NCBI GenBank assembly: GCA_026710905.1
Contig: JAPOQD010000125.1
Location: 1 to 64,000 of the forward strand
Length of the DNA: 64,000 bases
Source of the DNA: Halieaceae bacterium
GTDB lineage: Bacteria > Pseudomonadota > Gammaproteobacteria > Pseudomonadales > Halieaceae
Reading direction: 5' to 3'
In this document: positions 41,524 to 58,759 of the stretch, in pieces
Position numbering within the stretch: the first letter of the stretch is position 1
Layout: each line of letters starts with the position of its first letter
Notes under the pieces: model-generated
Seen by the model: only the letters and a program-made list of their open reading frames with translations
Told to the model about the DNA's origin: nothing
Databases searched by the model: none
Position numbers and translations under genes: made by a program

Positions 41524-41544
41524 GATTTTCGCCTCACTCAAGAC

Positions 41545-43734
41545 TCAACATGAAAAACGCCGATGGAAGCCGGCCCAGGCAAAGTTTCCGTCCGGCAGGC
41601 TGATAGCATGGGTTTTGCTTGTGTCCGCATCGTAGGAAAACGCCAGACAAAGTCTTTCACCAGTTATGGTTTCGATTTGAATCAGGTCCTTGTCCCCAGC
41701 CCCGAAACGTCGAATTGCGGCGATTCGGCTGCCGCTGCCAGTAGTGAACTCCCTGGCTCCATTGTATTCACCATGCGTTTCCAGCGCACCGACGAAAGTG
41801 ACTCTGTTGGCGTCTTCGACGCGAAATAAAAGGCCGGGTTCATGGCGCAAGTTAAATTCCGGGTCGCTGGCGCCCGTCTCCGTCATCAATACGCTCAGCC
41901 TGGCGTTGGCAATCTGGCTCCAGGTGTAGAAACGATTGCCGGCAAGCCAAGTATGAGAGTACTTTACGCCGCGCTCAATCGTGTTGCGAGCGCGCAACCA
42001 GAGATGCTGGTAACCGTTGCTGTTCCCAACGCGCTTTAGCGTAGTGCTGGCGGCCACCAAAGGCGGCGTGCTCTCAATCACCTGGCCCTGGTAATACAGC
42101 GGCAAATCGTACTGATGCGCTGTGTTGCCACGAACTTTCAATATATCCACTACCAGGGGCGCCGGGAAAGCCTGAGACTTGAGCAGCATGACAGTCCGGG
42201 TAAATTCAACTCCAGGATAAGCATTTGCCTCGCGCGCCGATGCAATTTGCGTCTGTTCGCCCAAGTGGAAAAAATGGGTGTCAGGCGCAGCCTCTTCCGC
42301 GGCCTGCAACACCCCGCCGAAATGACTATTATGGTCGACAACCAGGGTATTGTGGGCCACTGTCTGTTTTGCCCAACTGTTATTTTCTGGCAGGTAGTGG
42401 CCACCATTTTTCTGCACAATATTGAGAAAGCGCGCCGCGCCATAGTCGGAAATTATCTCCCGGCCATTGTCGTAATAGAGCCAGTTGAGGCGATCAAAAT
42501 GTCCGTGGCCCATACCCTGGGATGTGGCCTTGAATACCAGCGCTGCGTGTCCGGGATGGCTGCCGCTGCGCATGATGGACAGGGCGCCGCCCCCGCCCTC
42601 GGGGCCATCGCGCAATTGTATGGAAGCATACGCAAACGGCGCCCCCAAACCGGCTTCCCAAGCCCGCGCCATACGCAGGCCGTCGCCGGTAAGCGCCAGT
42701 GTTCCCCGCCCTTCAAGCAGAGACAGCAACGATGGCTCCAAAGTCAGGCCCCAGGCGATCGGAATTGCGTAATCCAGTTCGAAGGTATCCAGACCCTTGT
42801 CCTTTATCGCGTCATTGATCGGGAAGAACTTGCCGTTGTAGCTAAGTTGGAGGGTCGTATGGATGGCCTTCCTGAGCACACCGCCGCGATAGTCGAAGAT
42901 CCTGCGCTCCGGTTCGTTTTGCTCAATGGCCTTCGCGAACAGAACCAGGGGCATCAAGGCGTAGCGCTGGTAATAAGGACCTTCCTGGTAATAGCCGCCG
43001 GGGGAAAGCAGTTCGTCGAGTTGCTTCAGAAAGCCCGCGCTGCCGTCCTGTTTGAGACCCAGCAGCGCCCTGTTTACATAGCCGGAGTCATTGAGGACAT
43101 ACCCGGTCATACCAACTGCGGCGGCCGCCCAGGCACCGTGGTTGTGAATTCTATCGAAAGTTTGCGGAGACTCGACCGAGAGAAACTCCACCATGTTCCG
43201 AAACAATCGTGATTCGATGCGGCTTCGGTCCGCGGTACTCAAGGATTCGTATACAGCGTCATATCCCAAAATGGAATTCACCAGCCATACGGCCTCGTTC
43301 AAACTTTGCCAGAAAAGGCGACCGGGGGCCTGTTCCTTCTTTTGCGGATGTTCCGGCAGTGATGGATAAAGGTCCGAGTAGGCGAGTAACAGTCCCCTGA
43401 CATGATTGGAATATTCAGGTTCTCCGGTCCACAGGTACAACAGCCCGGCGTCCCACACTGCGGCTGCATTCCGCTTGTGTTGTTCGTGGGTGTACCCACC
43501 GCCGGCATCTTTTGGCCAGGGAACCTCGGGGGCGGTTTGAAAGTAACTGTCAACGCGCTCTTGTGTCCGCTTCAGCAGCGCAGAGAAATACTCAGATTGG
43601 CGCCAGGAATCGGCGTTTTCGCGGACTTCGGCAGCGGTCAGCAGCAGCCGTGGATGGCTACTGCCCTGCGCATTGGCAACCCAGGCAGCTAACAGACATA
43701 ACAGAGCACAGAGCAGACCTTGCGGTAACTTCAC
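41545..43734 (-). CDS. PL17 oligoalginate lyase
   Basis: PL17 enzymes are exo-acting lyases that cut alginate oligomers to unsaturated monomers, which become DEH. The protein (729 residues) has a signal peptide (MKLPQGLLCALLCLLAAWVANAQ), an alpha-toroid domain with the active-site FDRIHNHGAW (N198, H199) and GGYYQEGPYYQRYA, and a heparinase II/III-like beta-sheet domain with GMGHGHFDRLNWLYYDNG and VAHNTLVVD. These residues match the described Alg17C active site of Saccharophagus. The start is GTG at 43734, overlapping the PL6 stop as GTGA with GGAGG six bases upstream. Confidence 0.92.
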   Translation of the reverse strand: MKLPQGLLCALLCLLAAWVANAQGSSHPRLLLTAAEVRENADSWRQSEYFSALLKRTQERVDSYFQTAPEVPWPKDAGGGYTHEQHKRNAAAVWDAGLLYLWTGEPEYSNHVRGLLLAYSDLYPSLPEHPQKKEQAPGRLFWQSLNEAVWLVNSILGYDAVYESLSTADRSRIESRLFRNMVEFLSVESPQTFDRIHNHGAWAAAAVGMTGYVLNDSGYVNRALLGLKQDGSAGFLKQLDELLSPGGYYQEGPYYQRYALMPLVLFAKAIEQNEPERRIFDYRGGVLRKAIHTTLQLSYNGKFFPINDAIKDKGLDTFELDYAIPIAWGLTLEPSLLSLLEGRGTLALTGDGLRMARAWEAGLGAPFAYASIQLRDGPEGGGGALSIMRSGSHPGHAALVFKATSQGMGHGHFDRLNWLYYDNGREIISDYGAARFLNIVQKNGGHYLPENNSWAKQTVAHNTLVVDHNSHFGGVLQAAEEAAPDTHFFHLGEQTQIASAREANAYPGVEFTRTVMLLKSQAFPAPLVVDILKVRGNTAHQYDLPLYYQGQVIESTPPLVAASTTLKRVGNSNGYQHLWLRARNTIERGVKYSHTWLAGNRFYTWSQIANARLSVLMTETGASDPEFNLRHEPGLLFRVEDANRVTFVGALETHGEYNGAREFTTGSGSRIAAIRRFGAGDKDLIQIETITGERLCLAFSYDADTSKTHAISLPDGNFAWAGFHRRFSC

Positions 43735-45905
43735 CTTACGCCTCCCGTCGTGACGGAAGGCGGCGGCGTAGCAACCCATTGATTCTCCCTGATGACAGTG
43801 ATTGGCTCACCCACGGTCTCCACGATGCGCAGCGGCTGACTGTCGCTGAAGAGATTGGCCCGAATCTCCGCTTGCTGTACGCCGTGCAGAAAAACGGCGG
43901 ACGAATTTCTGTTGCGCCGGTTTTTACCGACAGTTTTCAGGATGCTGTCCTGCAGACGAACATGCGGACCAAAGGTGCTCTCATCCGTGCCACCACGATA
44001 GATACTGATGACAGCACCTCCGATATTTTCAAAGGTCGAGCCGGTCAGGGTGATGTATTCGCCGTTGTAAATTCCAAGATCATCAATTTCTCGATCCAGA
44101 GCAATAACATGCCCGCTGATATTCCTGAACAGCGAACCGCGAATTGAGACCTTTTGCGCGAAGGTATGGCTGGATACTCGCAGAAAGTTGAAGGAATGAT
44201 TGGTATCGAGATTCAATACTTCGGCGTTCGCCACTTCTAGCTCATAATTTGACAGCATCGAATAACGGCTGGTGCGCACCACGGAATTGCCGGAAGCATC
44301 CGGGGCCAGCGAACCGTCAATGGCGATGCCCGCAAGCTTCAGGCTGCCGCCTTCGGCCAACTCAAAGAGTGCGCTGCGCTCGAACTGTATTCGCGGTCGC
44401 GGCTGCGCGTTCGCTGCAGCACGCACAGTCAGTGGGCGGTCGAGAGACAGAATCCGGGTAACAGTATAGTCGCCTGGCCGCAGTTCGATGATGTCACCGT
44501 ACGCCGCCTTTTCGAAAGCCCCTGTCAGAGTGTCCCGCCCAGGGTCGACAAGCCAAGTGGCGCCGCTGTCGAAGCTGCTGGCTGAGCCCGGTTTCGGGTA
44601 CCAGGATACACCGGTTTGAGCACGCTCCAGCAGTTTTAGGGATCGCGGCGCGCCGATTTTCGCAAGAGACTCGTCAAGCGGGTGGAAGAGCCCGTTTTCA
44701 TTTTTTTCCAGGGCAACCTGCCGACGTTCAAAACCCAATGCATCCGGCAGGGTCACGTCACCGGCCACAACATTATTGGCGAAGGAGACTCCTTTGATTT
44801 CGTCATGTACGGTAATCAGGTTGGGTCTGCTGCTGTTGACAATCAAATTATTGCGGAAAGTACTGCGAATCGGCACGGCCGAGCGTTCCTCATCGCTGCC
44901 GGCGGCGAACTCGATGTGCTCGTTATCGATCAGGCTGTTGTTTTCGATCAGAGAATCCTCTACCTGGTGATAGCGATTAATCGGAGAATCCGGTACTCCA
45001 TTCATGATCACAAGGGCGCCACCGAAGCGATGGCCGGTCAGGCCGGACAAATAATTATTGCGGATGACCTGGCGCTTGTTTATCACCCGTATTCCGCCTG
45101 TGTGTTCCACTCCATTGCCAAGGAAAACATTAGCTTCGACCAGATTGTCGTTGCCGTGGCGCAGCGTCAGCGTACCCCTCGACTCGAGGAAAACATTTCC
45201 TCTGAACACATTTTTTCCCGACTTGTTTGAGATGATCTCGAGTTCTCCGTTGCAGCGGTCAAAGTAATTGTTTTCAACGAGTGTTTCCGATTCTGTCAAG
45301 GAGTACTTGCTGGTTCCGATACGAAGTGTTTCACCGCCATTGGCGCCGAGTATCGGCCGTGGGCCGAAATAGTTGTGGTCGATGCGATGGCGATTATTGC
45401 GGCTGCCCTGGCTATCAAGCCTGACGGCCATGGTGACGCCAGCATTACTTTTGCCCTCGAGATGATTGTGATCGAAACGATTGTTCTTGCCGTACATCAT
45501 CACCCAAAAATCTCTTTCGTAACGCTCCGGGTTGTTGTAATGGTCAATGACGATGTTGGTAACTCGGGAATGATTGGCGAGTTGATCCCTGCCACGTCGG
45601 AATGAAATGACTTCGTTGGTGGGGGTATGACCGTCTCTGAACACCAGGCCCGTAACCAAAAGGTATTCGCCGGCCAGTCTCAAATTCGATTTGCCGCCGA
45701 TCAGCACCTTGCCCGGGGTTTCCGCCCGCAGGGTAATCGGCTGCCCAGGCCGGCCTCGCCCCGAAAATACCATCTCGAAGTCTCGCCACTGTCCATTTGC
45801 GAGAATCACGCTATCACCGGGCTGTAGACCCTTGGTTGCAAGGAGGAATTCCTGCTCGCTGCGGACCATGATTTCGGCTGCTGGCGCCGTTTGGCTGACG
45901 GCCAT
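43731..45905 (-). CDS. PL6 alginate lyase (chondroitinase B-like)
   Basis: PL6 lyases cut alginate, preferring MG or poly-M blocks. The protein is two right-handed beta-helix regions in tandem (about 10-385 and 440-720). The first has NGGETLRIGTSKYSL, EIISNKSGKNVFRGN and SRGTLTLRHGN, which hold the Ca2+-binding residues and the catalytic Lys and Arg. The ATG at 45905 cuts the signal peptide short: the 16 codons before it read in frame FIKYKRFGVICGLFF, a good signal sequence ending at TAPAA, but no ATG, GTG or TTG exists before the stop in gntR. An ATT at 45953 is a possible start. Confidence 0.88.
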   Translation of the reverse strand: MAVSQTAPAAEIMVRSEQEFLLATKGLQPGDSVILANGQWRDFEMVFSGRGRPGQPITLRAETPGKVLIGGKSNLRLAGEYLLVTGLVFRDGHTPTNEVISFRRGRDQLANHSRVTNIVIDHYNNPERYERDFWVMMYGKNNRFDHNHLEGKSNAGVTMAVRLDSQGSRNNRHRIDHNYFGPRPILGANGGETLRIGTSKYSLTESETLVENNYFDRCNGELEIISNKSGKNVFRGNVFLESRGTLTLRHGNDNLVEANVFLGNGVEHTGGIRVINKRQVIRNNYLSGLTGHRFGGALVIMNGVPDSPINRYHQVEDSLIENNSLIDNEHIEFAAGSDEERSAVPIRSTFRNNLIVNSSRPNLITVHDEIKGVSFANNVVAGDVTLPDALGFERRQVALEKNENGLFHPLDESLAKIGAPRSLKLLERAQTGVSWYPKPGSASSFDSGATWLVDPGRDTLTGAFEKAAYGDIIELRPGDYTVTRILSLDRPLTVRAAANAQPRPRIQFERSALFELAEGGSLKLAGIAIDGSLAPDASGNSVVRTSRYSMLSNYELEVANAEVLNLDTNHSFNFLRVSSHTFAQKVSIRGSLFRNISGHVIALDREIDDLGIYNGEYITLTGSTFENIGGAVISIYRGGTDESTFGPHVRLQDSILKTVGKNRRNRNSSAVFLHGVQQAEIRANLFSDSQPLRIVETVGEPITVIRENQWVATPPPSVTTGGVR

Positions 45906-45966: not shown

Positions 45967-46716
45967 CTATAGTTGCGCGCTTTTCAGGAACCGTTCCCGG
46001 CTTGCGGTAGCCCGTTGGCGCAATTCCTCAAACGCCTGTTCTTCGGTGACATCCAGCATTGATTTTAGCAGACGGGTGAAATGCTGGCGCATGGCTGACC
46101 GTGCGGCGCCAGAATCGCGGCTGCGCAACGCTTCGAGGATTTCCGTATGCTCCTGGCCTCGCGCCGCCGAGTCTTCAGAACAGACGGAATCGTAAACCTC
46201 CCTGACTTGCTCCAATTCCATGCGCATTTTCCACAGCGTCTCAACAATATAGAGAACCGCCTTGTTGCCGGTGGAGGATGCTATGGTCAAATGGAAGTCG
46301 CGGTCTGCTTGTTCCGCGACCTGAGCCCCATCCGGCTCATCACTCATCATTTTTTCGATCAACGTTTCCAGGCGGTTCAGCACCTCATTGTCAATATCGG
46401 GAGCGGCCAGCGCCGCTGCCTCGGATTCGAACAAGGAGCGCGCTTCAGTAAGTTCAAACGCGCTGACACTGGGAATGCCTCCGGCAGACTGGTCCGATTT
46501 GTTCCGTACGTAGGCCCCGGAACCGGTTTTGATGTCGATACGCCCCAGCGCCTGAAGGAAGATTTCCGCCTCGCGCACAGTCACCCTGCTGACTTCGAGC
46601 GTTTCGGCCAACTCACGCTCTCCCGGTAAACGGCTGCCCGGAGGGTAGATACCGCTGTCTATCAAGCCGGCGATTCGGTCCGCGACCGATTGATACAAGC
46701 GTTTGTCTTTCATCAT
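45967..46716 (-). CDS. GntR family regulator, FadR/FCD subfamily
   Basis: The protein of about 249 residues has a winged helix (LYQSVADRIAGLIDSGIYPPGSRLPGERELAETLEVSRVTVREA region, about 6-75) and a C-terminal FCD ligand domain (about 95-225) with the metal-binding pattern RDFHLTIASSTGN and a later His in QEHTEIL and MRQHF. FCD proteins often respond to uronates or other organic acids. It lies between the TonB receptor and PL6 genes, so it probably senses an alginate product such as KDG. A GTG at 46743 and an ATG at 46737 are alternative starts. Confidence 0.88.
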   Translation of the reverse strand: MMKDKRLYQSVADRIAGLIDSGIYPPGSRLPGERELAETLEVSRVTVREAEIFLQALGRIDIKTGSGAYVRNKSDQSAGGIPSVSAFELTEARSLFESEAAALAAPDIDNEVLNRLETLIEKMMSDEPDGAQVAEQADRDFHLTIASSTGNKAVLYIVETLWKMRMELEQVREVYDSVCSEDSAARGQEHTEILEALRSRDSGAARSAMRQHFTRLLKSMLDVTEEQAFEELRQRATASRERFLKSAQL

Positions 46717-46743
46717 TCGTCTTTCTTGCCCGGCCATGGACAC

Positions 46744-49700
46744 TCAGAACTTGGCGCGAACGCTGGCAAACAGGCGCGGACCATAGCTGTTGAGTTCGGC
46801 GAAGTTCTGGGGCGTGGGGTTGTATTGGCTACGCGGTTCGTCAAACAGATTAATACCTTCGATTTTAATCGAAATCCAATCATTCAACTGATACGTAACC
46901 CTGGCTTCAAACACCTCGGTATCACCGATATAGCGGAGATTTCCAGGCGTACTGATGAATTGCTGGAAGTACTCACTGCGATATTTGTAGATGACCTGAA
47001 AATCCAAACTGGCGATTTGATAGTAGAGCTGAGCCGAAGCTACGGTATCGGAAAAACCGAATATATCCGCCGGCGGCACGATACCAACGCGCTCGGTAAC
47101 GACATTGCCGGAATCATCCTCTACTTGCGCCGAGCCAAAGTTGCCATCTTCAAACTCGAAATCCGACTCCGCCAGATTGAGGCTCAGCTTGGCGCCCAGA
47201 CCGCTCCATGCACCAGGCAACCAGCTAAAGGAGTGTGCGGCCGTGAGCTCAAAGCCATACAGGGTGCTCTCCCCGGAATCGGTTTGCGACGTGGTCACAT
47301 TCGCCGTAAAAGGCTGGCCGTTGATGGTAAAGGTTTCCACGCGCTGAACGTTCTCGAACCCTCCGAGGAATTCCTTGTAGTAGGCTCCAAGGGCAAGAAT
47401 CGTGTCATCGTTTGGATACCACTCGAGGGCGACATCGAAGTTCCAGGAGGTAAGCGGCTCCAGGCTCGGCTCTCCATAGGCCGTAGCGCTTCCTACCAGT
47501 TCGGCAATGGACGTGGGCTCGCCTGAGTCATCGACACTCAAGGCGCGGCCAAAACCCAGGTCTGCGGGGTCCGGACGAGACAACCCGCGAAAAATGCCAC
47601 CACGTAGCAGAAGGTCCTCTCTGAGGTCCATCACCAGGCTGAAACTGGGCAGAAGTTCGGTATAGCTGCCGCCGTCGCTCACCGAGAAGAAATTCTCGTT
47701 TTCCTCATTCACACTGATAACGCCATCCGCGTCGGTTTCCGTGGTAAAGGTTGTGCGTAGACCGGTGGAGTTGGTCTCGGTATTGACCACTCGCAAGCCG
47801 AAGTTGCCACGAACCGGCTTGCCCGCCAACTCACCCCTGTAATTGGCCTGAATATAGGCTGCCAGGGTTTCCTCTTCGACATCAATGTTGCGGACGTCGA
47901 GTTCAGGCTCGGGAATTGGGGGAACTTCGCCACCAACGAATTCCCGCACCAGGCAGAGTGGATCAAAGGATGCGTAACCGCTCCCCGTTCCCTGTGAAAT
48001 CACATTGCCATTCTCGTCCACGTTGGTGATAAGAGGGTTACCGTTGCGCGCCTCTGAAAGAAAACCACTTTCGGGAAACTCTGAGTTTCTGCAGGCCAGG
48101 CTCGCCCCAGCAATTGCATCATCAGAAAAGGTTCTCTGGTCCCTGACCCTGGGCCAGCTCTCGTATTCCAGCTTGGAATAACGTACACCGCCCTCGATGC
48201 TGGTGATTGCATTCCAATCCAGATCCCATTCAACGTCGCCTCGGACCGCCTCAATGGTGTTATCGCGGGCCTGGTTGAGATCAATCCTGCTGCGAGCGGA
48301 ATCGGCAAACAGATCTGCATTGGTAACATCGAAGTTTTCCACGGTAGCCAGGAAAACATCAGCACCAGAACCTGGCATCCTGAATGAGGTGAAGACGCGG
48401 TCCGAGCCGGCCGGGGTGGTATTGCCATGGATGTCTCTCGGTTCCGACTGCAAGCGCGTCTGAATAATGTTCTCGCGGCGCATGGTATCCGAATACGAGG
48501 CATCCAATGATACGGACAGGGTGTCGTTTACCTGGAAGCGGAGGTTCAGGCCGCCCCCCCGATACTCCTCAATGCGCTCCATCCAGGTGCTGTTTGTCTC
48601 GATACGTCCAATAGTCTCGAACAGCGAAACTGCGCCACTGCTGTCAGCAATCAGGCTTACATCGGTCAGGCCGGGAATAATGCGCCGTTGCTCCGCAAAT
48701 ACCAGATCATTGCGGGTTTCGGTGAAAGTACGGTCTGAGACCTGCATGTCGAAATTAATATCGACCCTTTGGTTGGGCCGCCATTGCAGTGCCGCAAAAA
48801 ACGACTCACGCTCATCATCGGTAATGTTCTGCCTATAGGAGCGGGAACTCGGGACAAATATGAAGGGGGCGCTCGCGTCCGCGGAGACTCCGGTGGCGGG
48901 GTCGACATTCAAATTCAGGTTTCCCGAGCCGCTGTCACAATTTCCACTGGAGGTTCGGTAAACGCCACCCGCAACGGATGGGTCCGCACGGCAGTCGCGC
49001 CAGCCACTGGTGGTGCGAGCTTCCTGCTCGGGATTGGTGGCGAGATTCTTTTGAATACCAAGGGAGACGCCAATGTCACCTAGCCCGTCGGTCTCGAACT
49101 GATCTATGTAACTCAGTGTCGGCCTGGCGCCCCAATCTCTTTCGTTATCGTTAATATCGGAATTGTCCGGGTTGTAATTGCCCTTGACTTCCACCTGAAT
49201 TCGCCGTTTGCCGTAATCCAGCGGATTGATGGTATCCAGTGCTATCTGGCCGGAAACTCCGCCCTCGATCAGGCTGGCTTCCTGGGTCTTGTAAATCATG
49301 ATCTTGTTGAACAATTCAGAGGGGAACTGGCTGAAGTTCACCGAACGGTCGCCACTGCCGTTGGTCGCCTCACGGCCGTTGACAGTGGTTGAGCCGAGAT
49401 AGGGGCCCATTCCACGAATCGAAATTTCCGTCGCCCCGCCCTGCTCGCGGTGTGATGCCGCGCTGGTCAGCGTTTCCAGCGCCTCACCGATGGAAAGAGC
49501 GGGAATATCGCCAATATCATCAACTGACAGGGCTTCGACCACTGTGTCCGAGGCCCGCTTTTCTTCAATGGAACTTCTTATGGTGCTGCGAGTACCGGTG
49601 ACGATTACCTCCTCAATGAACCCGGCATCCGCCTCCTGGGTGGATGCAATCGACGGCCAGGCCATCAGCCCGGCGCAGCAAACCGCCAGTGACAGGTATT

Positions 49701-49758
49701 TGACCAGCCAACTTTGCATGAAAGTAACTGGTTTCTTATCCGAATTATTCAAGCACAT
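46744..49758 (-). CDS. TonB-dependent receptor of the alginate locus
   Basis: The 1004-residue outer-membrane receptor has a signal region, a TonB box (EEVIVTGTR near 49-57), a plug domain (about 65-190, with SIRGMGPYLGSTTVNGRE) and a long beta-barrel ending in SYGPRLFASVRAKF with terminal Phe. It resembles the Xanthomonas/Caulobacter carbohydrate receptor group. As first gene of the operon with gntR, PL6, PL17, MFS and SDR, it probably takes up alginate oligomers with TonB energy. The ATG at 49758 has TAAGGTG five bases upstream; a second ATG at 49719 gives a more usual signal peptide. Confidence 0.93.
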   Translation of the reverse strand: MCLNNSDKKPVTFMQSWLVKYLSLAVCCAGLMAWPSIASTQEADAGFIEEVIVTGTRSTIRSSIEEKRASDTVVEALSVDDIGDIPALSIGEALETLTSAASHREQGGATEISIRGMGPYLGSTTVNGREATNGSGDRSVNFSQFPSELFNKIMIYKTQEASLIEGGVSGQIALDTINPLDYGKRRIQVEVKGNYNPDNSDINDNERDWGARPTLSYIDQFETDGLGDIGVSLGIQKNLATNPEQEARTTSGWRDCRADPSVAGGVYRTSSGNCDSGSGNLNLNVDPATGVSADASAPFIFVPSSRSYRQNITDDERESFFAALQWRPNQRVDINFDMQVSDRTFTETRNDLVFAEQRRIIPGLTDVSLIADSSGAVSLFETIGRIETNSTWMERIEEYRGGGLNLRFQVNDTLSVSLDASYSDTMRRENIIQTRLQSEPRDIHGNTTPAGSDRVFTSFRMPGSGADVFLATVENFDVTNADLFADSARSRIDLNQARDNTIEAVRGDVEWDLDWNAITSIEGGVRYSKLEYESWPRVRDQRTFSDDAIAGASLACRNSEFPESGFLSEARNGNPLITNVDENGNVISQGTGSGYASFDPLCLVREFVGGEVPPIPEPELDVRNIDVEEETLAAYIQANYRGELAGKPVRGNFGLRVVNTETNSTGLRTTFTTETDADGVISVNEENENFFSVSDGGSYTELLPSFSLVMDLREDLLLRGGIFRGLSRPDPADLGFGRALSVDDSGEPTSIAELVGSATAYGEPSLEPLTSWNFDVALEWYPNDDTILALGAYYKEFLGGFENVQRVETFTINGQPFTANVTTSQTDSGESTLYGFELTAAHSFSWLPGAWSGLGAKLSLNLAESDFEFEDGNFGSAQVEDDSGNVVTERVGIVPPADIFGFSDTVASAQLYYQIASLDFQVIYKYRSEYFQQFISTPGNLRYIGDTEVFEARVTYQLNDWISIKIEGINLFDEPRSQYNPTPQNFAELNSYGPRLFASVRAKF

Positions 49759-50286: not shown

Positions 50287-51294
50287 CTATATTTTCCTAC
50301 AGGATTCTCTTATAACCAGTGAGCAGGGAATCATTATCCGTTGAAAAGGAGGCGCCTTGCCGTCAATAATTTCGAGCAAAAGTTTTGCGGCCTGCATTCC
50401 AATTCTGTGTGGATCTTGTTTTACAACCGTTATAGGCGCCTTAAAAAATTCGGCCATGGGGACCTCATCAAACCCAAGAACGGAAACATCTTCAGGAACT
50501 GAGACATGCGCCTGGTTTAGCTGCTTTAGTAGCTCGATTGTAATGGCTAAATGTTGTGCAAAAAATACAGTCGGAGCATTGTCCAGTTCGAGGATGCTCT
50601 GGGGCAATTGTTGGAAACCGGTTTCACGGTGCCAAAATAGAATTAATTGCTCATGCACCGAAATACCATTCATGGTCAATGCTTCCACAAAGCCCTGGTA
50701 CCGTTCATTTCTTGATTTCACATCCTGATAAACTTGCGTCGCGAAACAAATTCGTTTGTGCCCGAGCTGAATTAAATATTCGGTTGCGTCGAACGCAGCT
50801 TGTCTATAGTCAGACAAAATAATATTTTTTTTGGCGTCATCGTGCTCGAGCTGAAATTCTACAACGGGTAAGCCCCGTTTTACCTGTTCTGAAATGAGAT
50901 CAGTATTCTGTCCCGTTGAAGCGACAATAAGGCCATCGATGCGAAGCTGGCTTAGCGCTTCTATCGAACGGGCTTCGACATTGGCATCGAAGTCGGTGTT
51001 ATAGATCAGGACGTTGTATTCGCTGATTTTACAGAAATCATCTATGCCCCTGATCGCACGGCTGGAATAAAAACCTGTTATGTCTCTTACGATGACGCCG
51101 ATAGTTTTGGTTTTGTTGGTTTTGAGACTGCGTGCGATAGGGTTTGGAGCGTAATTCAGTTCTATAACGGCGGCATTGATACGCTCCCTCGTCGCCTTCG
51201 ACATATAGCCGAATCTTCCGTTCAAATACTGAGAGACGGTGCTCTTTGACACGCCCGCGTGTTCGGCTACATTAATTAACTTTATCTTTTGCAT
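50287..51294 (-). CDS. LacI family transcriptional regulator
   Basis: The protein of 335 residues has the LacI helix-turn-helix at the N-terminus (LINVAEHAGVSKSTVSQYLNG), the hinge helix (PNPIARSLKTNKTKTIGVIV), and a periplasmic-binding-protein-like sensor domain (about 62-330). The start is the ATG at 51294 (MQKIKLINVA); the open frame upstream runs through the promoter. It is divergent from manD, and a palindrome of the LacI type lies between them, so it most likely represses the manD operon until a sugar acid binds. Confidence 0.93.
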   Translation of the reverse strand: MQKIKLINVAEHAGVSKSTVSQYLNGRFGYMSKATRERINAAVIELNYAPNPIARSLKTNKTKTIGVIVRDITGFYSSRAIRGIDDFCKISEYNVLIYNTDFDANVEARSIEALSQLRIDGLIVASTGQNTDLISEQVKRGLPVVEFQLEHDDAKKNIILSDYRQAAFDATEYLIQLGHKRICFATQVYQDVKSRNERYQGFVEALTMNGISVHEQLILFWHRETGFQQLPQSILELDNAPTVFFAQHLAITIELLKQLNQAHVSVPEDVSVLGFDEVPMAEFFKAPITVVKQDPHRIGMQAAKLLLEIIDGKAPPFQRIMIPCSLVIRESCRKI

Positions 51295-51338: not shown

Positions 51339-51366
51339 TTGACATATTGAAACACTGTGATATTCT
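51339..51366 (+). promoter_or_regulatory. Promoter of the manD operon
   Basis: A perfect TTGACA (51339-51344) is followed after 16 bases by TATTCT (51361-51366). The expected start of transcription falls at the edge of the LacI-type operator just downstream. Confidence 0.8.
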
Positions 51367-51371
51367 AACCA

Positions 51372-51387
51372 ACTAAAACGGTTTAGT
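51372..51387. promoter_or_regulatory. LacI-type operator
   Basis: ACTAAAACGGTTTAGT has ACTAAA/TTTAGT arms around a central CG, the pattern bound by LacI-family proteins. It begins five bases after the -10 box, so a bound repressor would cover the transcript start of manD. Confidence 0.75.
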
Positions 51388-51425
51388 AAATCAATTTATT
51401 TTTGGTCTAAAGTAGAAGCAATACG

Positions 51426-52643
51426 TTGAAAATTAAGGAGATCAGGGTCTTTATCTGTAATCCGGGCAGAAACTTCATTACGGTCAAGGTGATTTTAGAC
51501 TCTGGTATATACGGTCTGGGGGATGCGACAGTGAACGGCCGTGAAATGGCTGTTGTCACTTACCTCGAAGAACATGTCGTCCCCTGCCTTATCGGCAGGA
51601 ACGCTCATGACATAGAAGATATCTGGCAGTATTTGTATAAAGGTGTCTACTGGCGTAAAGGCCCAATTAATATGGCGGCCATTTCCGCTATTGATATGGC
51701 TCTTTGGGATATCAAGGGGAAAGTTGCCGGTTTGCCGGTTTATCAATTGTTGGGAGGGCAAAGCCGAAGTGGCGTAAGTCTATACGCACACGCCCATGGT
51801 GAGAATATCGGCGATACGCTCGATATGGCCGACAAACATATCAGGCAGGGGTTTAAAGCGATTCGATTACAATCCGCTGTTCCAGGTTTAAAAGTTACCT
51901 ACGGAGTGCTCGGTGACAGAAAGGACTACTACAAGCTGCAAGGAAATAGGCCACTACCGCCGGAAGATGACTGGTCAACACAAAAGTACTTCAATATGAT
52001 TGAGGAACTTTTTTTTCAGGCCCGTGAGCGTTTCGGAAACGACGTTCATTTAATGCATGACGTGCATAGCCGGTTAACTCCGATCGAATCAGCGCGGCTT
52101 GGTCAGCTTCTGGAGAAATACAACCTGTTTTTCTTGGAAGACGCTTCGATTGCGGAGAACCAGGACAGCTATAAGGTAATTCGGCAACACACTACGATCC
52201 CACTCGCTATTGGCGAAACCTACAACACAATTTGGGATTGCAAGGACCTTATTCAAAATCAGCTAATTGATTATATACGAGTAGCAGCCTCTCACGCCGG
52301 GGGTATCACCGCATTCCGACGAATTGCGGACTTCGCTGATGTCTATAACGTTAAAACAGCGCCTCACGGAGCACCTGATCTTTCCCCTATCTGTTTTGCA
52401 GCGCATATTCACCTAGACACCTGGACACCGAATTTTGGAATTCAGGAATTTGTAGGTTTAGGTAACAAACAGAGCAAGGAAATATTTCAACACGACATCC
52501 AGGTTAAGGATGGCATAGCGCATGTGAGCGACGCTCCTGGGCTTGGAGTCGAATTTGATGAGTCCGCTGCCAGGGAATACCCCTACAAGCGTTCCTATCT
52601 TCCAGTTTGTCGTCTTGAAGATGGAACGTTGTGGAACTGGTAA
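51426..52643 (+). CDS. manD: D-mannonate dehydratase family enzyme (ManD/RspA)
   Basis: ManD turns D-mannonate into 2-keto-3-deoxygluconate. The 405-residue enolase-superfamily protein closely follows the ManD pattern: CPGRNF-like start (ICNPGRNFITVK), IEDIWQYLYKGVYWRKGP, metal ligands in HDVHSRLTP, FLEDAS and AIGETYNTIWD, a His in TAPHGAPDLSP, and the ending YLPVCRLEDGTLWNW. The start is TTG at 51426. The family also has members with low activity and D-gluconate specificity, so the substrate is a family-level inference. It is first in an operon with a Gfo/Idh/MocA protein and an SSS symporter. Confidence 0.88.
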   Translation: MKIKEIRVFICNPGRNFITVKVILDSGIYGLGDATVNGREMAVVTYLEEHVVPCLIGRNAHDIEDIWQYLYKGVYWRKGPINMAAISAIDMALWDIKGKVAGLPVYQLLGGQSRSGVSLYAHAHGENIGDTLDMADKHIRQGFKAIRLQSAVPGLKVTYGVLGDRKDYYKLQGNRPLPPEDDWSTQKYFNMIEELFFQARERFGNDVHLMHDVHSRLTPIESARLGQLLEKYNLFFLEDASIAENQDSYKVIRQHTTIPLAIGETYNTIWDCKDLIQNQLIDYIRVAASHAGGITAFRRIADFADVYNVKTAPHGAPDLSPICFAAHIHLDTWTPNFGIQEFVGLGNKQSKEIFQHDIQVKDGIAHVSDAPGLGVEFDESAAREYPYKRSYLPVCRLEDGTLWNW

Positions 52644-52685
52644 GTCCAGCAAGTTCAATTGAATTTATTACGTCAGAACATCAAC

Positions 52686-53825
52686 ATGAGTAAACAAATT
52701 AAAGTACTAATTTGCGGAACCGGTTTTGCTGGCCAGGGGCATGCAGAAGCTTTTAGATATGCTTCTGCCGAAGTTGTTGGCATTGTCGGTAGAACAGAAA
52801 GTGTCGTACAGAAAGTAGCTGAAGACCTGGCCATTCCTTACGCCAGCACTGACTGGAAACAGGCGCTTATAGATTGCCAACCCGATGTGGTATCAATCGC
52901 TACGCCAGGGGGCTCCCATTTAGCGCCCATCAAACAGGCTATTGAATTCGGCTGCCACGTATTTTGCGATAAGCCCTTGGCGGAATCGGGTGAAACAGCA
53001 AAAGAGCTCTACCAGCTGTCGATCAGCAAAGATTTGAAAACAGCTTTTGCTGCAAGTTTTAGATACATGCCAGAAGTGATGCATGCAAAGAGACTGGTCG
53101 CAGAAGGAGCGATTGGCGAACCTTTGGAAGTTGAATGTATTTCGCACTTTAATCTAGAGCGGGGAATACCATTTGGCTGGTCCCATAGAAAGGAAGACGG
53201 TGGTGGCCGGCTAAACAACAACTTCACCCACAAGCTATCAATTGTGACCTCCGTACTTGGTGAAAGGATTCTCTCCATTATGGGTGAGGTGCGGGATGAT
53301 CTGGGCAAAGCGCCAATAGTAGAGGGTGTGCATAACTTTAAGACGAGACGGGAATTGATTCCTGAAGACCTCACAGACCTGTCTCTAAAGTGGGGAGAAT
53401 CCAATGTTGAATGGACATACACAGTATTGGCAAAGATAGAAAGTGAATTTGCCAAAAAACCCGTGTCGGTGATGTTCAAGCACGGCGGGCTGAACCCTCG
53501 ATTCAACGAAGACCATATTGTGTTTTATGGCAGCAAAGGTGCGATATATATTAAAGGACACTATGGTTCTGGCCCTCTGTATTTATATGGAGGAGACAAT
53601 GAGTGGCAAGAAATTCCTCTACCCGAGGAAATTGCCGCAGACGTACCAGATATTGAAGGCGACACCGAGCGAAACTGGACATATCTTATCCGCGAGCTGG
53701 TAAGGGATATTCAAGGAGTGCCGGTTGCTCCCTATCAAACTTTCAAAGAAGGCAGTCAGTATCAGCAGCTTATTGACCTGATTCGCAAAAACGAGAATTG
53801 GATGGACGTCAGTCATCTGCGATAA
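52686..53825 (+). CDS. Gfo/Idh/MocA family oxidoreductase
   Basis: The 379-residue protein has an N-terminal Rossmann fold (VLICGTGFAGQGHAEAF, VSIATPGGSHLAPIKQAIEFG, and the catalytic-type CDKPLAES) and the C-terminal GFO_IDH_MocA domain from about residue 130. Members oxidize or reduce sugars and sugar acids with NAD(P). The ATG at 52686 is taken as start. Position after manD suggests that it makes or interconverts a sugar acid feeding ManD, for example at C2 or C3 of a uronate or aldonate; the exact substrate is not known. Confidence 0.88.
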   Translation: MSKQIKVLICGTGFAGQGHAEAFRYASAEVVGIVGRTESVVQKVAEDLAIPYASTDWKQALIDCQPDVVSIATPGGSHLAPIKQAIEFGCHVFCDKPLAESGETAKELYQLSISKDLKTAFAASFRYMPEVMHAKRLVAEGAIGEPLEVECISHFNLERGIPFGWSHRKEDGGGRLNNNFTHKLSIVTSVLGERILSIMGEVRDDLGKAPIVEGVHNFKTRRELIPEDLTDLSLKWGESNVEWTYTVLAKIESEFAKKPVSVMFKHGGLNPRFNEDHIVFYGSKGAIYIKGHYGSGPLYLYGGDNEWQEIPLPEEIAADVPDIEGDTERNWTYLIRELVRDIQGVPVAPYQTFKEGSQYQQLIDLIRKNENWMDVSHLR

Positions 53826-53837
53826 AGGGGAGATCCC

Positions 53838-55586
53838 TTGCTCTATGAGTACTTGGTGATTTCTGGCTATTTTTTCTTAATAGTCGGCATCGGTTTTGCA
53901 TTTAAAAAAATGGCAAAAAATTCAACCAGCGACTACTTTCGTGGTGGTGGTAGAATGCTCTGGTGGATGGTCGGTTCAACGGCCTTCATGGCCCAGTTTT
54001 CAGCTTGGACATTCACAGGTGCTGCTGGCAAGGCCTTTACAGATGGTTTTTCGGTCAGCCTTGTGTTTTTTGCGAATACCTTTTCCTACTTTTGTGGGTG
54101 GGCGTATTTTTCTCATCGCTTTCGTCAAATGCGAGTGGATACGCCCACTGAAGCAATCAAGAGGCGATTTGGTCATCAGAATGAGCTGTTCTTTTCATGG
54201 GCCTTGATCATATTCAGTTTGATTAATGCAGGTGTATGGTTAAACGCATTAGGTGTGTTTGCCAGCGCGTTTTACAATGCGGATATCAGTCTCACAATCA
54301 TCGCTACAGGCTTGGCTGTGATATTTGTTTCAGTCCTGTCGGGCGCCTGGGGGGTAGTGGCATCAGATTTTGTACAGACCTTGGTTGTTGCCGTGGTTTC
54401 CGTAGCCTGCGCCATTGTGGCACTTGTCAAAGTTGGCGGCCCGGTCGAACTGTTCACTAACTTTCCCTCCGGTTTTCTAATAGGACCAGATTTGAATTAC
54501 GGGCTAATACTGTTTGGTTCCTTTGTATTCTTTTTGGTGAAACAGCTAATCACCATTATGAATCTCAACGACTCCTTTCGATTTTTGAACGCAAAGGATT
54601 CGGAAAGCGCCAGAAAAGCAGCCTTACTTGCGATGGTGCTGATGGGAGTGGGTAGTATCGTCTGGTTTATTCCACCATGGGCTTCGGCCATTTTGTATCC
54701 TGATGCCGCCATGGCCTACTCCGGTCTCGGAAATAAAGCGTCCGATGCAGTGTATTTGGTTTTCACGAAAAATGCGATGCCTGTGGGTACAATCGGACTG
54801 CTAATGGCGGGGCTATTTGCTGCATCCATGTCATCAATGGACTCCGCCCTAAATAAAAATGCCGGGATTTTTATAAGAAGTATTTATCAACCTCTAATAG
54901 CCAAATACGGGAAGGAGGTGAATGATAAACGGCTGCTTAAACTAAGCAGATTGGTGAGCTTTATCAGTGGTTTACTTGTTATCTTGGTCGCTTTATTCTT
55001 TAGGTCTCTACAGGAGCTGAGTTTATTTGAGCTCATGATGAGGGTTTCAACCATGATTCAGGTGCCGCTTCTTGTTCCACTGATCTTTGGCCTGTTTATA
55101 AAAAAGACTCCTCAGTGGGCTCCATGGGCGACTGTTGCTCTTGGGCTGTTCATTTCCTGGTTTATTGCGAATATATTTACCCCGGAGGTATTTGCCGGTT
55201 TGGTGGGCATTGAAGAGCTAACTCGCCGAGAGACAGTGGATATTGGCCTGATATTGACCATTGCAGCACACCTGTTTATCACTGCCGCTTTCTTCTGTAT
55301 GACAGCTCTTTTCTACAAAGAAGAGTGCGATGCGCATCGGTTTGAAACAGAGCGATTCTTTGCTGATATCGAGACCCCGGTCATCGCTGACTCTGAGCAG
55401 GACGAATATGACCGGCAGCAACGATATAAATTGGGGTCAATGGTGGTTTTCATGGGAATAGGTGTGATATTTATGGCGCTGATTCCGAATCCTCTGTGGG
55501 GGAGGTTTATGTTTATAATGTGCTCATTAGTGATATTAGCATTAGGGATGTTACTGAAAAATAGTGCTACTAAAAAGCTGGCGTAA
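53838..55586 (+). CDS. Sodium:solute symporter (SSS family)
   Basis: The 582-residue protein has about 13-14 hydrophobic segments and SSS features: SDYFRGGGRMLWWMVGSTAFMAQFSAWTF-type TM1-2 region, and AGLFAASMSSMDSALNKNAGIF in TM8 with the Ser residues of the Na2 site. A soluble stretch (about 495-525) lies before the last helices. The start is TTG at 53838 with GGGGAG upstream, 12 bases after the Gfo/Idh gene. It probably brings in the sugar acid handled by the two enzymes before it. Confidence 0.9.
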   Translation: MLYEYLVISGYFFLIVGIGFAFKKMAKNSTSDYFRGGGRMLWWMVGSTAFMAQFSAWTFTGAAGKAFTDGFSVSLVFFANTFSYFCGWAYFSHRFRQMRVDTPTEAIKRRFGHQNELFFSWALIIFSLINAGVWLNALGVFASAFYNADISLTIIATGLAVIFVSVLSGAWGVVASDFVQTLVVAVVSVACAIVALVKVGGPVELFTNFPSGFLIGPDLNYGLILFGSFVFFLVKQLITIMNLNDSFRFLNAKDSESARKAALLAMVLMGVGSIVWFIPPWASAILYPDAAMAYSGLGNKASDAVYLVFTKNAMPVGTIGLLMAGLFAASMSSMDSALNKNAGIFIRSIYQPLIAKYGKEVNDKRLLKLSRLVSFISGLLVILVALFFRSLQELSLFELMMRVSTMIQVPLLVPLIFGLFIKKTPQWAPWATVALGLFISWFIANIFTPEVFAGLVGIEELTRRETVDIGLILTIAAHLFITAAFFCMTALFYKEECDAHRFETERFFADIETPVIADSEQDEYDRQQRYKLGSMVVFMGIGVIFMALIPNPLWGRFMFIMCSLVILALGMLLKNSATKKLA

Positions 55587-55650
55587 ACCGCCTTCTAAAC
55601 ACCGGCCTTATTTATTATTTATGAAAAGGGAGAAAACCAGATTCTCTTAA

Positions 55651-55678
55651 AAAACCGCTCAGTTCCCCAAGCGGTTTT
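55651..55678. terminator. Bidirectional terminator between SSS symporter and TonB receptor
   Basis: AAAACCGCT (55651-55659) pairs perfectly with AGCGGTTTT (55670-55678) across a 10-base loop. Runs of A before and T after make it usable from both sides, as expected between the convergent symporter and receptor genes. Confidence 0.85.
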
Positions 55679-55718
55679 GAATGAATCCAAAGCGTCTACA
55701 GTAATAAACAATGCGCAA

Positions 55719-58682
55719 TTAAAACTTCATGCGCAGACCAAGAGAGAAACGACGATCTGCTTCAGTATAATACCAAGGACTTCCAAGCTCTGTCAGAAAT
55801 GTTGAAGGTTCGCCCGTTAGATTAGTAATGTTAGCTACTACGGTCGTACTATCACTAACAGCCCAACTTGCCGAGAAATCAAACTGGCCTCTATCATCAC
55901 GATAATTATTACCTGCAGTAGGGTCAAAGACGGGTGATGTCTCATCATTAGTGTTGCTATTTAGGGCCAACCCACCAACAGTCTGTACACGAGTTTCCTC
56001 TTCAGTATCCAGGAAACGGTCGCGGAAGTTGTAAGCAAGCCGAACCTGGATTGACTCACCTTCCCAGTAAAGTTGGGCGTTGATTGTGTTTTCAGAGATG
56101 TCCAGCAACATGTTGCCGTTGGGTTGTTCACTATCCGCATAGGTATAGTTTGCACTCACGCCCAACCCGGACCATGCGCCAGGCAAAAAGTCGAAGTGTT
56201 GATGGTAACCGAGTTCAAAGCCTTCAATCGTACCGTTTTCGCCATTTGTCACGCGATTGGTGTTTATACCGGTAAGACCAGCGTCTCTCTGAGCAGCGGT
56301 AAAGGCAAAACCCGCAGCATCAACGTCAGGCGCACCTGCAAAATCCGCTTGGGTAGAGAACTCGAGATCGGGATTGTTTACGCCAGAACTGCCAAGAAGG
56401 CAGATGGCTTCCCATTCGGTAACATTTTGACCAGAGGTTAGTGAGCTGGCTACACAGGTATTGGATTCACTCAAGAATGATTTAACATCCTTATAGAACA
56501 CCGCAAAAGACACCAAATTACCTTCACCAAAGTAATGCTCGATCGAAAGGTCATACTGGGTTGCACGGAACGGATCCAAATCGATCGCCCCTTGAACAGC
56601 AGAGTAAAATGAGCTGTTGATTTCAAAGGCTGGGCTTAGCTCGCTATAGTTTGCACGGCGCATCACTTTAGCAGCTGCGAATCGAACCAGAGTATTCTCT
56701 GTAACATCATAAGTGACATTCAAGCTTGGCAAAATGTCACTATAGTCGTGATCACCTGTTACCAATTCACCATCCACATAAACCGTGGATTCGATATCAG
56801 TTGTAACGTAACGACCACCTACGACGGCACGAACATTATCGAAATCCAACTCCGCCGACACATAGAAAGCGCCTGTTTCTTCAGTAATATCCCGGTAGGC
56901 GCTTTCTTGAACCTCCAAGTTATCATCCAGGCTTCCTGTGGTTTCATAGTTCGTCCCTTTAAGCATCTCTTGAACTCGATCAAAAGTGCCTTCAAGATCA
57001 GTAAGCAGGTCACCTCGGTAAATGCGATATTCCAGCAAGTCCATTTGACCGGAGATGCCGTGTTGATCAAAAGAGCCGGAGTGATTAACTGTTTCGAAAG
57101 AGCCGGGGAACATAGCTTCAAAGTCATCAATCCATACGGCGAAAGGTCTTTCGGTCGCAGTACCCTCATCATACAAAACATTCCTGTAGAGATTAGACGC
57201 AAGGTATTCTCTCTCGTTGAACTCGTAGTCGTTCTTTGTAAATCGTATACCTGCCTTCAATGAGGAAACAAATTCCAGGCCAAATGCCTCCGAATAATCG
57301 ACATCAAACCGGACAGCCGTCTCGTCATTTGTGGTGAGCACTTCTTCAGTAACAAAACGTCGAATAGCCAAATTTTCAGGACTCAAAAGCGCTAGCGGGT
57401 CAGAATACACAATGCTGGGAATATCACTTCCCGATTGGTTAAATTCGGCATCGACTGTATGACGAAGACCGAATGCCACACGATCACTGTTAAAGTTGCT
57501 TACACCCGGAGTATATTGTGCCGCCCAGGTTTCCCAGTTCGTTTTGTTTATCGGTCGTAGGTTGAATTCAGAATCCGGCTGAGAGCTTTCTGAAGATGCC
57601 ATCGAAATCTCACCGGAAACGGCAAGAGTATCTGAAAAATTCCAGTCAAATCCCAGTGCATTTGAAAAAGACTCCGTTTCGCGGAATTCACTCCAGGTTT
57701 TTGGAATAACAAAGGCGCCTGTAAGCGAATAGTTATTAACCTGACCGGAGCCATCCTGTGTAGTATTGGCGTTATAGGTCCTGGAGCCACCTACATCGAG
57801 AATTGAACTACCTCGTTGACCTCCGGACCTTTCAGTCATGCTTACATCCAGGTAAACACTTCCAGCATCCGATGCGGGTGCCCACTGGAGAGAAAGGTTC
57901 AATGCGGTACGCTCGCGATCCTCCTCGTATTGTTCAAGCGTATTTTGCTCTCTAACGGCAAATCGACCACTAGGCGTGTTTGCCACTAAGCCGTTCACGG
58001 GTTCATCATAAAGTCTGACGCGGTTTTTATATTCATCCTGACGAATCGTGCGGTCTTGGTAAGACAGCATACCTATCACGCCAAATCTGCCTCCGCTATC
58101 AAGGTCCCAGACATTACCGGCTGAAAAGTTTGCTATGGGAGCCCAGTTTTCAGTTTTATCAGCATATTCAGTGTCTAGGGATCCAGCGACAGTGAGGCCA
58201 CTTAATTCTAGAGGGCGAACTGTATTCATACCGACAGTGCCACCGAGTGCGCCTTCGATCATATCTGCAGTTGGTGATTTAATAACTTCAACAGATTTCA
58301 AGAAACTTGAAGGAAAGTCTTGCAGACTGATACCGTCGCGATCATCACCTATAGTAGTACGACCATTTAATTCAACTCGGTTTTGAGACAAACCCCGAAT
58401 CGAAACGCTATCACCTACGCCGAAGTCAGTGTTAATGGAAACACCGGTAATACGCTGAAGTGCTTCAGCAATATTGTTGTCTGGCAATTTGCCAATATCT
58501 TCAGCAACAATCGCATCTACGATACGCGAATCATTGCGTTTAAGTTCTGTCGCGGCTACCAGACTGGCGCGAATGCCAGTAACCACGACTTCCTCCAAAG
58601 CTTCCTGTGAAATAGCGGTTTGTGTGAACGGTAAAATCGACGCTGACAACAAGAAAGTCATCAATCTTTTCGTAAATTTCAT
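55719..58682 (-). CDS. TonB-dependent receptor of the mannonate cassette
   Basis: The protein (about 987 residues) has a signal peptide (MKFTKRLMTFLLSASILPFTQTAISQ), the TonB box EEVVVTGIRASL, and a plug with AEDIGKLPDNNIAEALQRITGV and SIRGLSQNRVELNGR, the classic pattern of carbohydrate receptors of the Xanthomonas/Caulobacter type. The barrel ends with RRFSLGLRMKF. I take the ATG at 58682 as start. It shares its promoter block with the alginate receptor but the proteins themselves differ widely. It is convergent with the manD operon and probably imports the larger substrate of that cassette. Confidence 0.93.
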   Translation of the reverse strand: MKFTKRLMTFLLSASILPFTQTAISQEALEEVVVTGIRASLVAATELKRNDSRIVDAIVAEDIGKLPDNNIAEALQRITGVSINTDFGVGDSVSIRGLSQNRVELNGRTTIGDDRDGISLQDFPSSFLKSVEVIKSPTADMIEGALGGTVGMNTVRPLELSGLTVAGSLDTEYADKTENWAPIANFSAGNVWDLDSGGRFGVIGMLSYQDRTIRQDEYKNRVRLYDEPVNGLVANTPSGRFAVREQNTLEQYEEDRERTALNLSLQWAPASDAGSVYLDVSMTERSGGQRGSSILDVGGSRTYNANTTQDGSGQVNNYSLTGAFVIPKTWSEFRETESFSNALGFDWNFSDTLAVSGEISMASSESSQPDSEFNLRPINKTNWETWAAQYTPGVSNFNSDRVAFGLRHTVDAEFNQSGSDIPSIVYSDPLALLSPENLAIRRFVTEEVLTTNDETAVRFDVDYSEAFGLEFVSSLKAGIRFTKNDYEFNEREYLASNLYRNVLYDEGTATERPFAVWIDDFEAMFPGSFETVNHSGSFDQHGISGQMDLLEYRIYRGDLLTDLEGTFDRVQEMLKGTNYETTGSLDDNLEVQESAYRDITEETGAFYVSAELDFDNVRAVVGGRYVTTDIESTVYVDGELVTGDHDYSDILPSLNVTYDVTENTLVRFAAAKVMRRANYSELSPAFEINSSFYSAVQGAIDLDPFRATQYDLSIEHYFGEGNLVSFAVFYKDVKSFLSESNTCVASSLTSGQNVTEWEAICLLGSSGVNNPDLEFSTQADFAGAPDVDAAGFAFTAAQRDAGLTGINTNRVTNGENGTIEGFELGYHQHFDFLPGAWSGLGVSANYTYADSEQPNGNMLLDISENTINAQLYWEGESIQVRLAYNFRDRFLDTEEETRVQTVGGLALNSNTNDETSPVFDPTAGNNYRDDRGQFDFSASWAVSDSTTVVANITNLTGEPSTFLTELGSPWYYTEADRRFSLGLRMKF

Positions 58683-58759
58683 TACTTTTTTACCCTTTGT
58701 AATCATGAAGTGGACTTTTTGCATTAAGAGATATGACATCTTTTTGACCAAATTGTGTT

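Follow-up and report, generated by a model that had tools for sequence, protein, structure and literature searches.

A ManD and Gfo/Idh operon beside an alginate locus in a Halieaceae bacterium: a candidate D-mannuronate branch of alginate catabolism

How does a bacterium with a D-mannonate dehydratase obtain D-mannonate when the enzymes that usually make it are not found? The question is raised by the first 64,000 nucleotides of contig JAPOQD010000125.1 from a Halieaceae bacterium (hereafter the window). A first-pass annotation, made from the letters alone, had placed the dehydratase gene manD, an oxidoreductase, a symporter and a convergent receptor at 51339-58751. Family models match all four genes, confirming the region as a unit of ManD, a Gfo/Idh-family oxidoreductase and a sodium:solute symporter (SSS) with a convergent TonB-dependent receptor and a LacI regulator (Table 1); the LacI gene (50287-51294) lies just outside these coordinates. 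The gaps are 42 bases between ManD and Gfo/Idh and 12 bases between Gfo/Idh and SSS. No UxaC (PF02614), UxuA or mannitol-dehydrogenase-type UxuB (PF08125) was detected anywhere in the host genome, the completeness of which is 92.9% (short-chain-type UxuB was not searched). The earlier remark that UxuB and UxuA are missing from this neighbourhood thus extends, for the PF08125 type of UxuB, from the window to the whole host genome.

We consider it fairly likely that the operon serves alginate catabolism as a side branch for saturated uronate monomers, in which Gfo/Idh reduces D-mannuronate to D-mannonate. The TonB receptor and the symporter would import the sugar acid, Gfo/Idh would use NAD(P)H to reduce free D-mannuronate at C1, and ManD would dehydrate the resulting D-mannonate to 2-keto-3-deoxy-D-gluconate (KDG). 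This would merge with the KDG made from the unsaturated monomer 4-deoxy-L-erythro-5-hexoseulose uronate (DEH), and KDG kinase and 2-keto-3-deoxy-6-phosphogluconate (KDPG) aldolase would follow. The LacI repressor would act on its one operator, with a sugar acid from the pathway as its presumed inducer. Several elements of this scheme are inferred: what Gfo/Idh acts on, in which direction and with which cofactor, what the transporters carry, and which compound induces the operon. Compared with the UxaC-UxuB-UxuA/ManD glucuronate route, the last step, D-mannonate to KDG, would be the same, whereas here D-mannonate would come straight from the C1 reduction. The symmetry of the D-mannitol skeleton makes D-mannonate the product when D-mannuronate is reduced at C1; from L-guluronate such a reduction gives D-gluconate, and Gfo/Idh would perhaps catalyse this reaction as well. 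The DEH reductase of Sphingomonas A1, a short-chain dehydrogenase/reductase (SDR), can oxidise D-gluconate at C6, forming L-guluronate, and attacks C6 of D-mannonate in the same way (PMC6011931); it offers a precedent for the chemistry because it runs the proposed reduction backwards.

Among 390 genomes sampled from the order, Gfo/Idh is encoded by 8 (host counted), each from a different genus. A PL17-type oligoalginate lyase, called with NF042990 at E <=1e-60 (no match was above the model's own strict cut-off), was found in 20 of the 390: in 8/8 genomes with Gfo/Idh versus 12 of the 382 others (Fisher 1.0e-11, uncorrected for phylogeny), and in 7/7 when the host was excluded. ManD is likewise present in all eight, versus 44 of 390 overall. 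Beyond the order, a contig scan yielded 218 relatives of Gfo/Idh; the best 80 of these 218 belong, by their titles, to Gammaproteobacteria, Alphaproteobacteria, Bacteroidota and one Chloroflexota (Anaerolineales) metagenome-assembled genome (MAG). A plasmid search added five further Gfo/Idh genes, all from Rhodobacterales and all directly upstream of ManD (5/5); four of the five have PL7 or DUF4962 genes nearby. DUF4962 is a domain that, given its position beside SDR and KDG-kinase-like genes, we take to be an alginate lyase domain.

To resolve the association at the level of neighbouring genes, 91 related Gfo/Idh loci (window excluded), spread over two phyla plus a single MAG from a third, were set against 33 control loci in which ManD comes from a genome of this one order that lacks Gfo/Idh. 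The 91 amount to at most 89 distinct loci, because L020/L099 and L075/L078 are identical or nearly so. Of the 36 genomes that have ManD but lack Gfo/Idh, the controls represent 33 (G097, G213 and G257 are not included), and three control loci are <15 kb; the controls were drawn from 38 retrieved ManD loci, five of which, from Gfo/Idh genomes, had been set apart beforehand (L155, L187-L190). One of these five, L189, sits in an alginate locus. ManD was found in 76/91 loci, in 53 of them <=200 bp away on the same strand, and SSS in 73/91. Lyase families were present in 27 of the 91 (22 through PL6, PL7 or PL17, five through DUF4962 alone) and in 0/33 controls (p = 1e-4, or p = 9e-4 for the 22 strict lyase loci), a comparison uncorrected for phylogeny, in which related genomes are non-independent and distant lyases in controls could escape, the tblastn references having been taken from the same kind of loci. 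Altogether, these results support the view that the Gfo/Idh system tracks alginate lyases beyond chance, and the association at both genome and locus level lends comparative support to the earlier suggestion that the product KDG joins the alginate route. Since the system tracks alginate lyases and C1 reduction would turn D-mannuronate into D-mannonate, the substrate of Gfo/Idh is probably mannuronate.

The enzymes of the usual route showed the opposite distribution: UxuB was near Gfo/Idh in 6/91 loci versus 21/33 controls (p = 2e-10), and UxaC in 0/91 versus 8/33 (p = 1e-5). These figures bear on the idea that Gfo/Idh is an unusual fructuronate reductase, a substitute for UxuB, with ManD completing the glucuronate pathway. 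ManD classically follows UxuB, as the control loci illustrate, and UxaC is present somewhere in four of the eight Gfo/Idh genomes. Fructuronate has to be made by an isomerase, however, and besides its absence from the 91 loci UxaC was not found in the host and three other Gfo/Idh genomes (one only 64% complete). Genome G343 has two ManDs, one beside Gfo/Idh and the other, apart from it, beside UxaC and UxuB; and the six loci holding both Gfo/Idh and UxuB also count against this idea. We regard a fructuronate reductase as very improbable. The first-pass proposal that Gfo/Idh could make mannonate from mannuronate, by comparison, draws support from the co-occurrence with PL17-type lyases, from the lyases within the loci, and from how rarely, if at all, the enzymes that usually form mannonate occur.

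What Gfo/Idh makes can be approached through its dehydratase partners. The window ManD scores 665.5 bits against an NF043051 equivalog cut-off of 550, and D212, E238, E264, R147, Y159, H214 and H314 are invariant in 27/27 ManDs, linked and unlinked taken together; with roles carried over from the Novosphingobium enzyme, we take the first three to be metal ligands and the other four to be catalytic. Activity of ManD on D-mannonate is predicted for this operon. In a quick IQ-TREE phylogeny of 114 rows (midpoint root for drawing only; L108, with 238 residues, and the ManD of G275, 76% identical to the window ManD, were left out), the Gfo/Idh-linked ManDs formed two clades with support of 100 each, apart from the 33 controls. 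Clade I holds 54 rows, and clade II holds 22 plus three unlinked ManDs of Gfo/Idh genomes; in G158, G003 and G303, where ManD is not adjacent to Gfo/Idh, a clade II ManD lies elsewhere in the genome. ManD position 316, where Ala or Pro presumably bears on catalytic efficiency, is Ala in 73/76 linked sequences and Pro in three, versus 23 Ala and 10 Pro in the 33 controls (four control rows were read by eye); it was rejected as a group marker since it separates linked from control ManDs poorly. UxuA, which is unrelated in fold to ManD although both dehydrate D-mannonate, occurs in 10/91 Gfo/Idh loci, and L104 combines Gfo/Idh with UxuA and a UxuB-like gene, with no ManD in the locus DNA covered. 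Because Gfo/Idh is partnered with two separate ManD lineages and with the unrelated UxuA, its product is probably D-mannonate.

D-mannonate for ManD and UxuA would be supplied equally well from D-mannose. If Gfo/Idh were a D-mannose (aldose) dehydrogenase, it would oxidise D-mannose to mannonolactone and mannonate, and ManD would then form KDG in a non-phosphorylating route; aldose dehydrogenases are indeed among the relatives of Gfo/Idh, and the L-glucose/scyllo-inositol dehydrogenase fold resembles its model (see below). The observed association, however, is with alginate lyases. Moreover, no recognised mannan-degrading family appeared in the top 25, by frequency, of the 123 Pfam families matched in 83/342 unlabelled neighbours from 26 loci (genome-level mannan association was not tested), and the weak GH76 matches among those neighbours fall on AGE-epimerase proteins. 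A mannose dehydrogenase thus seems unlikely to us. The other candidates raised in the first-pass annotation, namely methylated uronates, ulvan, fucoidan and glucuronan, found no support among the neighbours scanned; because the scanned proteins are part of all neighbours, this argues only weakly against methylated uronates, ulvan and fucoidan.

Gfo/Idh itself matches PF01408, PF22725 and PF02894 above cut-off, which corresponds to an N-terminal Rossmann domain and an alpha/beta C-terminal domain. Nine NCBIfam models matched and none reached its cut-off; the best, the levoglucosan dehydrogenase equivalog NF052479, gave 80.5 bits of the 650 required. By sequence the best PDB relative scored 85 bits. 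A structural model (pLDDT 87.1) has levoglucosan dehydrogenase as its nearest fold (Z 36.4, 345 residues, root-mean-square deviation (rmsd) 2.6), followed by L-glucose/scyllo-inositol dehydrogenase (Z 34.8, 343 residues, rmsd 2.6), yet these two share only ~20% identity with Gfo/Idh and have the catalytic Asp where it has Asn. Hallmarks of the Gfo/Idh/MocA family are a catalytic Lys (EKP-like) and a D-x-x-x-H motif; K97 and H183 are invariant in 41/41 aligned sequences, with N179 in place of the Asp (correspondence taken from an alignment). The second beta strand ends in G-R-T, with no acidic residue, a feature that makes the predicted cofactor lean to NADPH.

NAD-dependent sulfoquinovosidases are also among the near folds (Z about 32), and with levoglucosan dehydrogenase they leave room for another function: Gfo/Idh might be a second DEH reductase, or a redox glycosidase or 3-dehydrogenase acting on alginate oligomers, with the adjacency of ManD reflecting shared regulation only. 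C1 reduction of DEH would yield KDG directly, and in L017 and L018 Gfo/Idh and SSS lie inside alginate operons without an adjacent ManD. These two loci, as well as L012-L015, already contain an SDR of the DEH-reductase type, however, and ManD is present in 76/91 loci, while the genomes with a distant ManD (G158, G003 and G303) carry one of the special clade II. We judge this function improbable. The reduction of D-mannuronate that we favour would share with the DEH reductase route (SDR, KdgK, Eda) the C1 reduction of an alginate monomer and the KDG endpoint, and such an SDR is encoded in the adjacent locus; the DEH route takes the unsaturated monomer in one step, whereas the substrate proposed for the operon is saturated and requires a dehydratase.

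A possible source of the free sugar is suggested by a ~280-residue protein family that is found in 52/91 loci and lies <=400 bases from the symporter in 42 of the 52. Its N-termini look, by eye, like signal or lipoprotein leaders. No match over cut-off was obtained for the members compared with Pfam (L018, L065) or with NCBIfam (L016, L018, L019), and no member was matched in the host genome. Modelled with AlphaFold (pLDDT 86.8), the family shows the fold of a galactose mutarotase, matching 3mwx at Z 19.4 over 219 residues (rmsd 3.1). A mutarotase near the symporter would suit a free reducing sugar, although this fold also occurs in lyases and glycosidases.

Several observations weigh against the proposed mannuronate branch. 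Twelve genomes of the order have a PL17-type lyase without Gfo/Idh, 64/91 loci have no alginate lyase in the locus DNA covered, and 15/91 have no ManD in the DNA covered (five of these on <10 kb). UxuB does lie near Gfo/Idh in the six loci mentioned, and among the eight Gfo/Idh genomes UxaC is found somewhere in four and UxuA in five, so that the Gfo/Idh route and the usual route can coexist. Where the family normally has its catalytic Asp, Gfo/Idh has Asn (N179, invariant in 41/41), and the fold does not fix the reaction because Gfo/Idh folds include aldose, inositol and levoglucosan dehydrogenases as well as redox glycosidases. Finally, exolytic lyases should release only one saturated residue per chain; since lyases yield mostly unsaturated monomers, the scheme leaves a gap in how enough free saturated mannuronate would be provided. 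The mutarotase-fold protein, another hydrolase or an outside supply could fill it.

Control of the operon was also examined. Because family matches begin about 30 residues inside the LacI open reading frame (ORF), its likely start is ATG 51294. The operator ACTAAAACGGTTTAGT at 51372-51387, directly downstream of the -10 hexamer, is the sole match in the window at <=2 mismatches (0.08 expected) and is unique in the host genome at <=1 mismatch. In 53 related loci whose ManD is >60% identical, a 12-base core scored upstream of ManD was matched at 11 or 12 positions in 25/25 loci with a labelled LacI gene and in 3/28 without one; one of these three, L059, has a LacI match at the contig end. Of the "textbook promoter and operator" noted earlier, the operator thus holds as a conserved and rare site, whereas the promoter is present but does not stand out as a signal: TTGACA-16-TATTCT-type matches in the region numbered 15, versus 12.7 +/- 2.9 expected by chance. 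In the related locus L019 of G343, a second operator copy precedes a TonB receptor (47% identical to that of the window), a gluconokinase and a PL7 lyase; the kinase scores 142.9 bits against a cut-off of 113.75. In G343 the LacI regulator thus probably controls alginate genes directly. Among the LacI-operator loci, L042 (3543-4586) and L055 (4272-5279) have BspA-type leucine-rich-repeat proteins adjoining the TonB receptor.

Table 1. Positions of the operon, its control sites and the adjacent alginate locus in the window, and of the mutarotase-fold family in related loci
Feature	Position	Strand	Basis
LacI-family repressor	50287..51294	-	Pfam LacI + Peripla_BP_3; orthologues beside ManD in related loci; ORF open to 51372
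Sigma-70-like promoter TTGACA-16-TATTCT	51339..51366	+	Match by itself not above chance
LacI operator ACTAAANCGNTTTAGT	51372..51387	+	Conservation upstream of ManD; rarity in window and host genome
ManD, predicted D-mannonate dehydratase, Gfo/Idh-linked clade I	51426..52643	+	NCBIfam equivalog, active-site residues, tree
Gfo/Idh oxidoreductase, proposed D-mannuronate C1 reductase	52686..53825	+	Pfam domains, co-occurrence, conserved residues, model
SSS symporter, proposed uronate importer	53838..55586	+	Pfam SSF; 5nv9 as best PDB match by sequence (81 bits)
TonB-dependent receptor, convergent, likely start 58682	ORF 55719..58751	-	TIGR01782, 547 bits
TonB-dependent receptor in alginate locus	46744..49758	-	NCBIfam match
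GntR/FCD regulator in alginate locus	45967..46743	-	Pfam
PL6-type lyase	43731..45905	-	Pfam Chondroitinas_B
PL17-type oligoalginate lyase	41545..43779	-	Pfam Alginate_lyase + Hepar_II_III_C; NF042990 850 bits, below cut-off 1400
MFS transporter of alginate locus	40222..41541	-	Pfam
SDR, DEH-reductase-like	39473..40225	-	SDR by Pfam + NCBIfam
KDPG aldolase (lower pathway)	36737..37363	+	Pfam Aldolase
~280-residue mutarotase-fold family members	L036-L115, e.g. L049:12999-13799, L065:5843-6691		

An alginate locus starts 528 bases left of the LacI gene. Its SDR is a putative DEH reductase, as judged from its position in alginate loci, and the KDG-kinase-like gene of the host scores 259.7 bits, below the model cut-off of 400. 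Beyond the SDR lie two neighbouring glyceraldehyde-3-phosphate dehydrogenase (GAPDH) genes (37374-39385, minus strand), which separate the alginate genes from those of the Entner-Doudoroff pathway (zwf, pgl, edd, eda); in L017, too, edd and eda stand next to a pair of GAPDH genes (75% and 53% identical) close to the alginate genes. At 61839-62855 (minus strand) the window encodes a 1-aminocyclopropane-1-carboxylate deaminase (TIGR01274, 542.6 bits, cut-off 392), an enzyme one would not expect next to alginate genes except in a bacterium living with algae or plants.

Some related loci carry additional enzymes. L045 encodes an aldehyde dehydrogenase and an RraA-like aldolase (4968-6554 and 9273-9992) and L051 a 2-hydroxyacid dehydrogenase (8850-9959), and both also hold Gfo/Idh, a clade II ManD, UxuA and PL17; the extra enzymes possibly give KDG a different fate. 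AGE-family 2-epimerases (PF07221) stand beside an NRAMP transporter in L046 (15591-16769), L066 (8576-9772) and L053 (13784-14965). In L046 and L066 the epimerase lies between the metal transporter and UxuB, with UxuA also present, which would fit a possible isomerising second route from mannuronate through fructuronate to D-mannonate. A GntK/IdnK-type gluconokinase adjoins a TonB receptor in L019 (5398-5913, model match) and L111 (845-1327, a 55% identical stretch). Because gluconokinase was found near only these 2/91 loci and the host gave no match, a guluronate branch can be put forward here only as a possibility. A broader picture can be sketched as a doubtful extension: a second alginate-monomer route in Pseudomonadota and Bacteroidota (and the one MAG of a third phylum), in which a single Gfo/Idh C1 reductase would make both D-mannonate and D-gluconate, ManD or UxuA would form KDG, gluconokinase would in some members give 6-phosphogluconate, and the probably secreted mutarotase-fold family would release or anomerise the uronate outside the cytoplasm.

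The proposed reaction is not new. Farmer and Eagon reportedly described a D-mannuronate reductase (EC 1.1.1.131) of Aeromonas in 1969. The enzyme reduces D-mannuronate with NAD(P)H to D-mannonate, which is then dehydrated to KDG, and to our knowledge no gene or sequence has been assigned to this activity. The reaction proposed here is the same, and a Gfo/Idh gene family is put forward for it, its identity with the Aeromonas enzyme being hypothetical. A review of hexuronate catabolism gives the DEH route for alginate (PMC6353982), and an account of uronate metabolism in an alginate grower lists UxuA, UxuB and UxaC (PMC13274419). No description of the ManD and Gfo/Idh gene pair was found in the titles and abstract beginnings of open-licence literature on mannuronate reductase, mannonate, or alginate with MocA or ManD, nor in the available parts of PMC6353982, PMC6011931, PMC13274419, PMC7953866, PMC9122927, PMC4476818 and PMC8563752. 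The reaction and the enzyme families are known; what looks new, as far as this search shows, is the gene proposed for the activity, its pairing with the dehydratase and how widely the pair occurs. If the proposal is true, it provides a candidate gene family for the old activity EC 1.1.1.131 and accounts for the presence of ManD in alginate degraders where UxaC or UxuB is not found. The usual picture of alginate catabolism, which has only the DEH route, would gain a branch for saturated uronates, and automatic annotation would be corrected, in that such ManDs would not mean glucuronate use.

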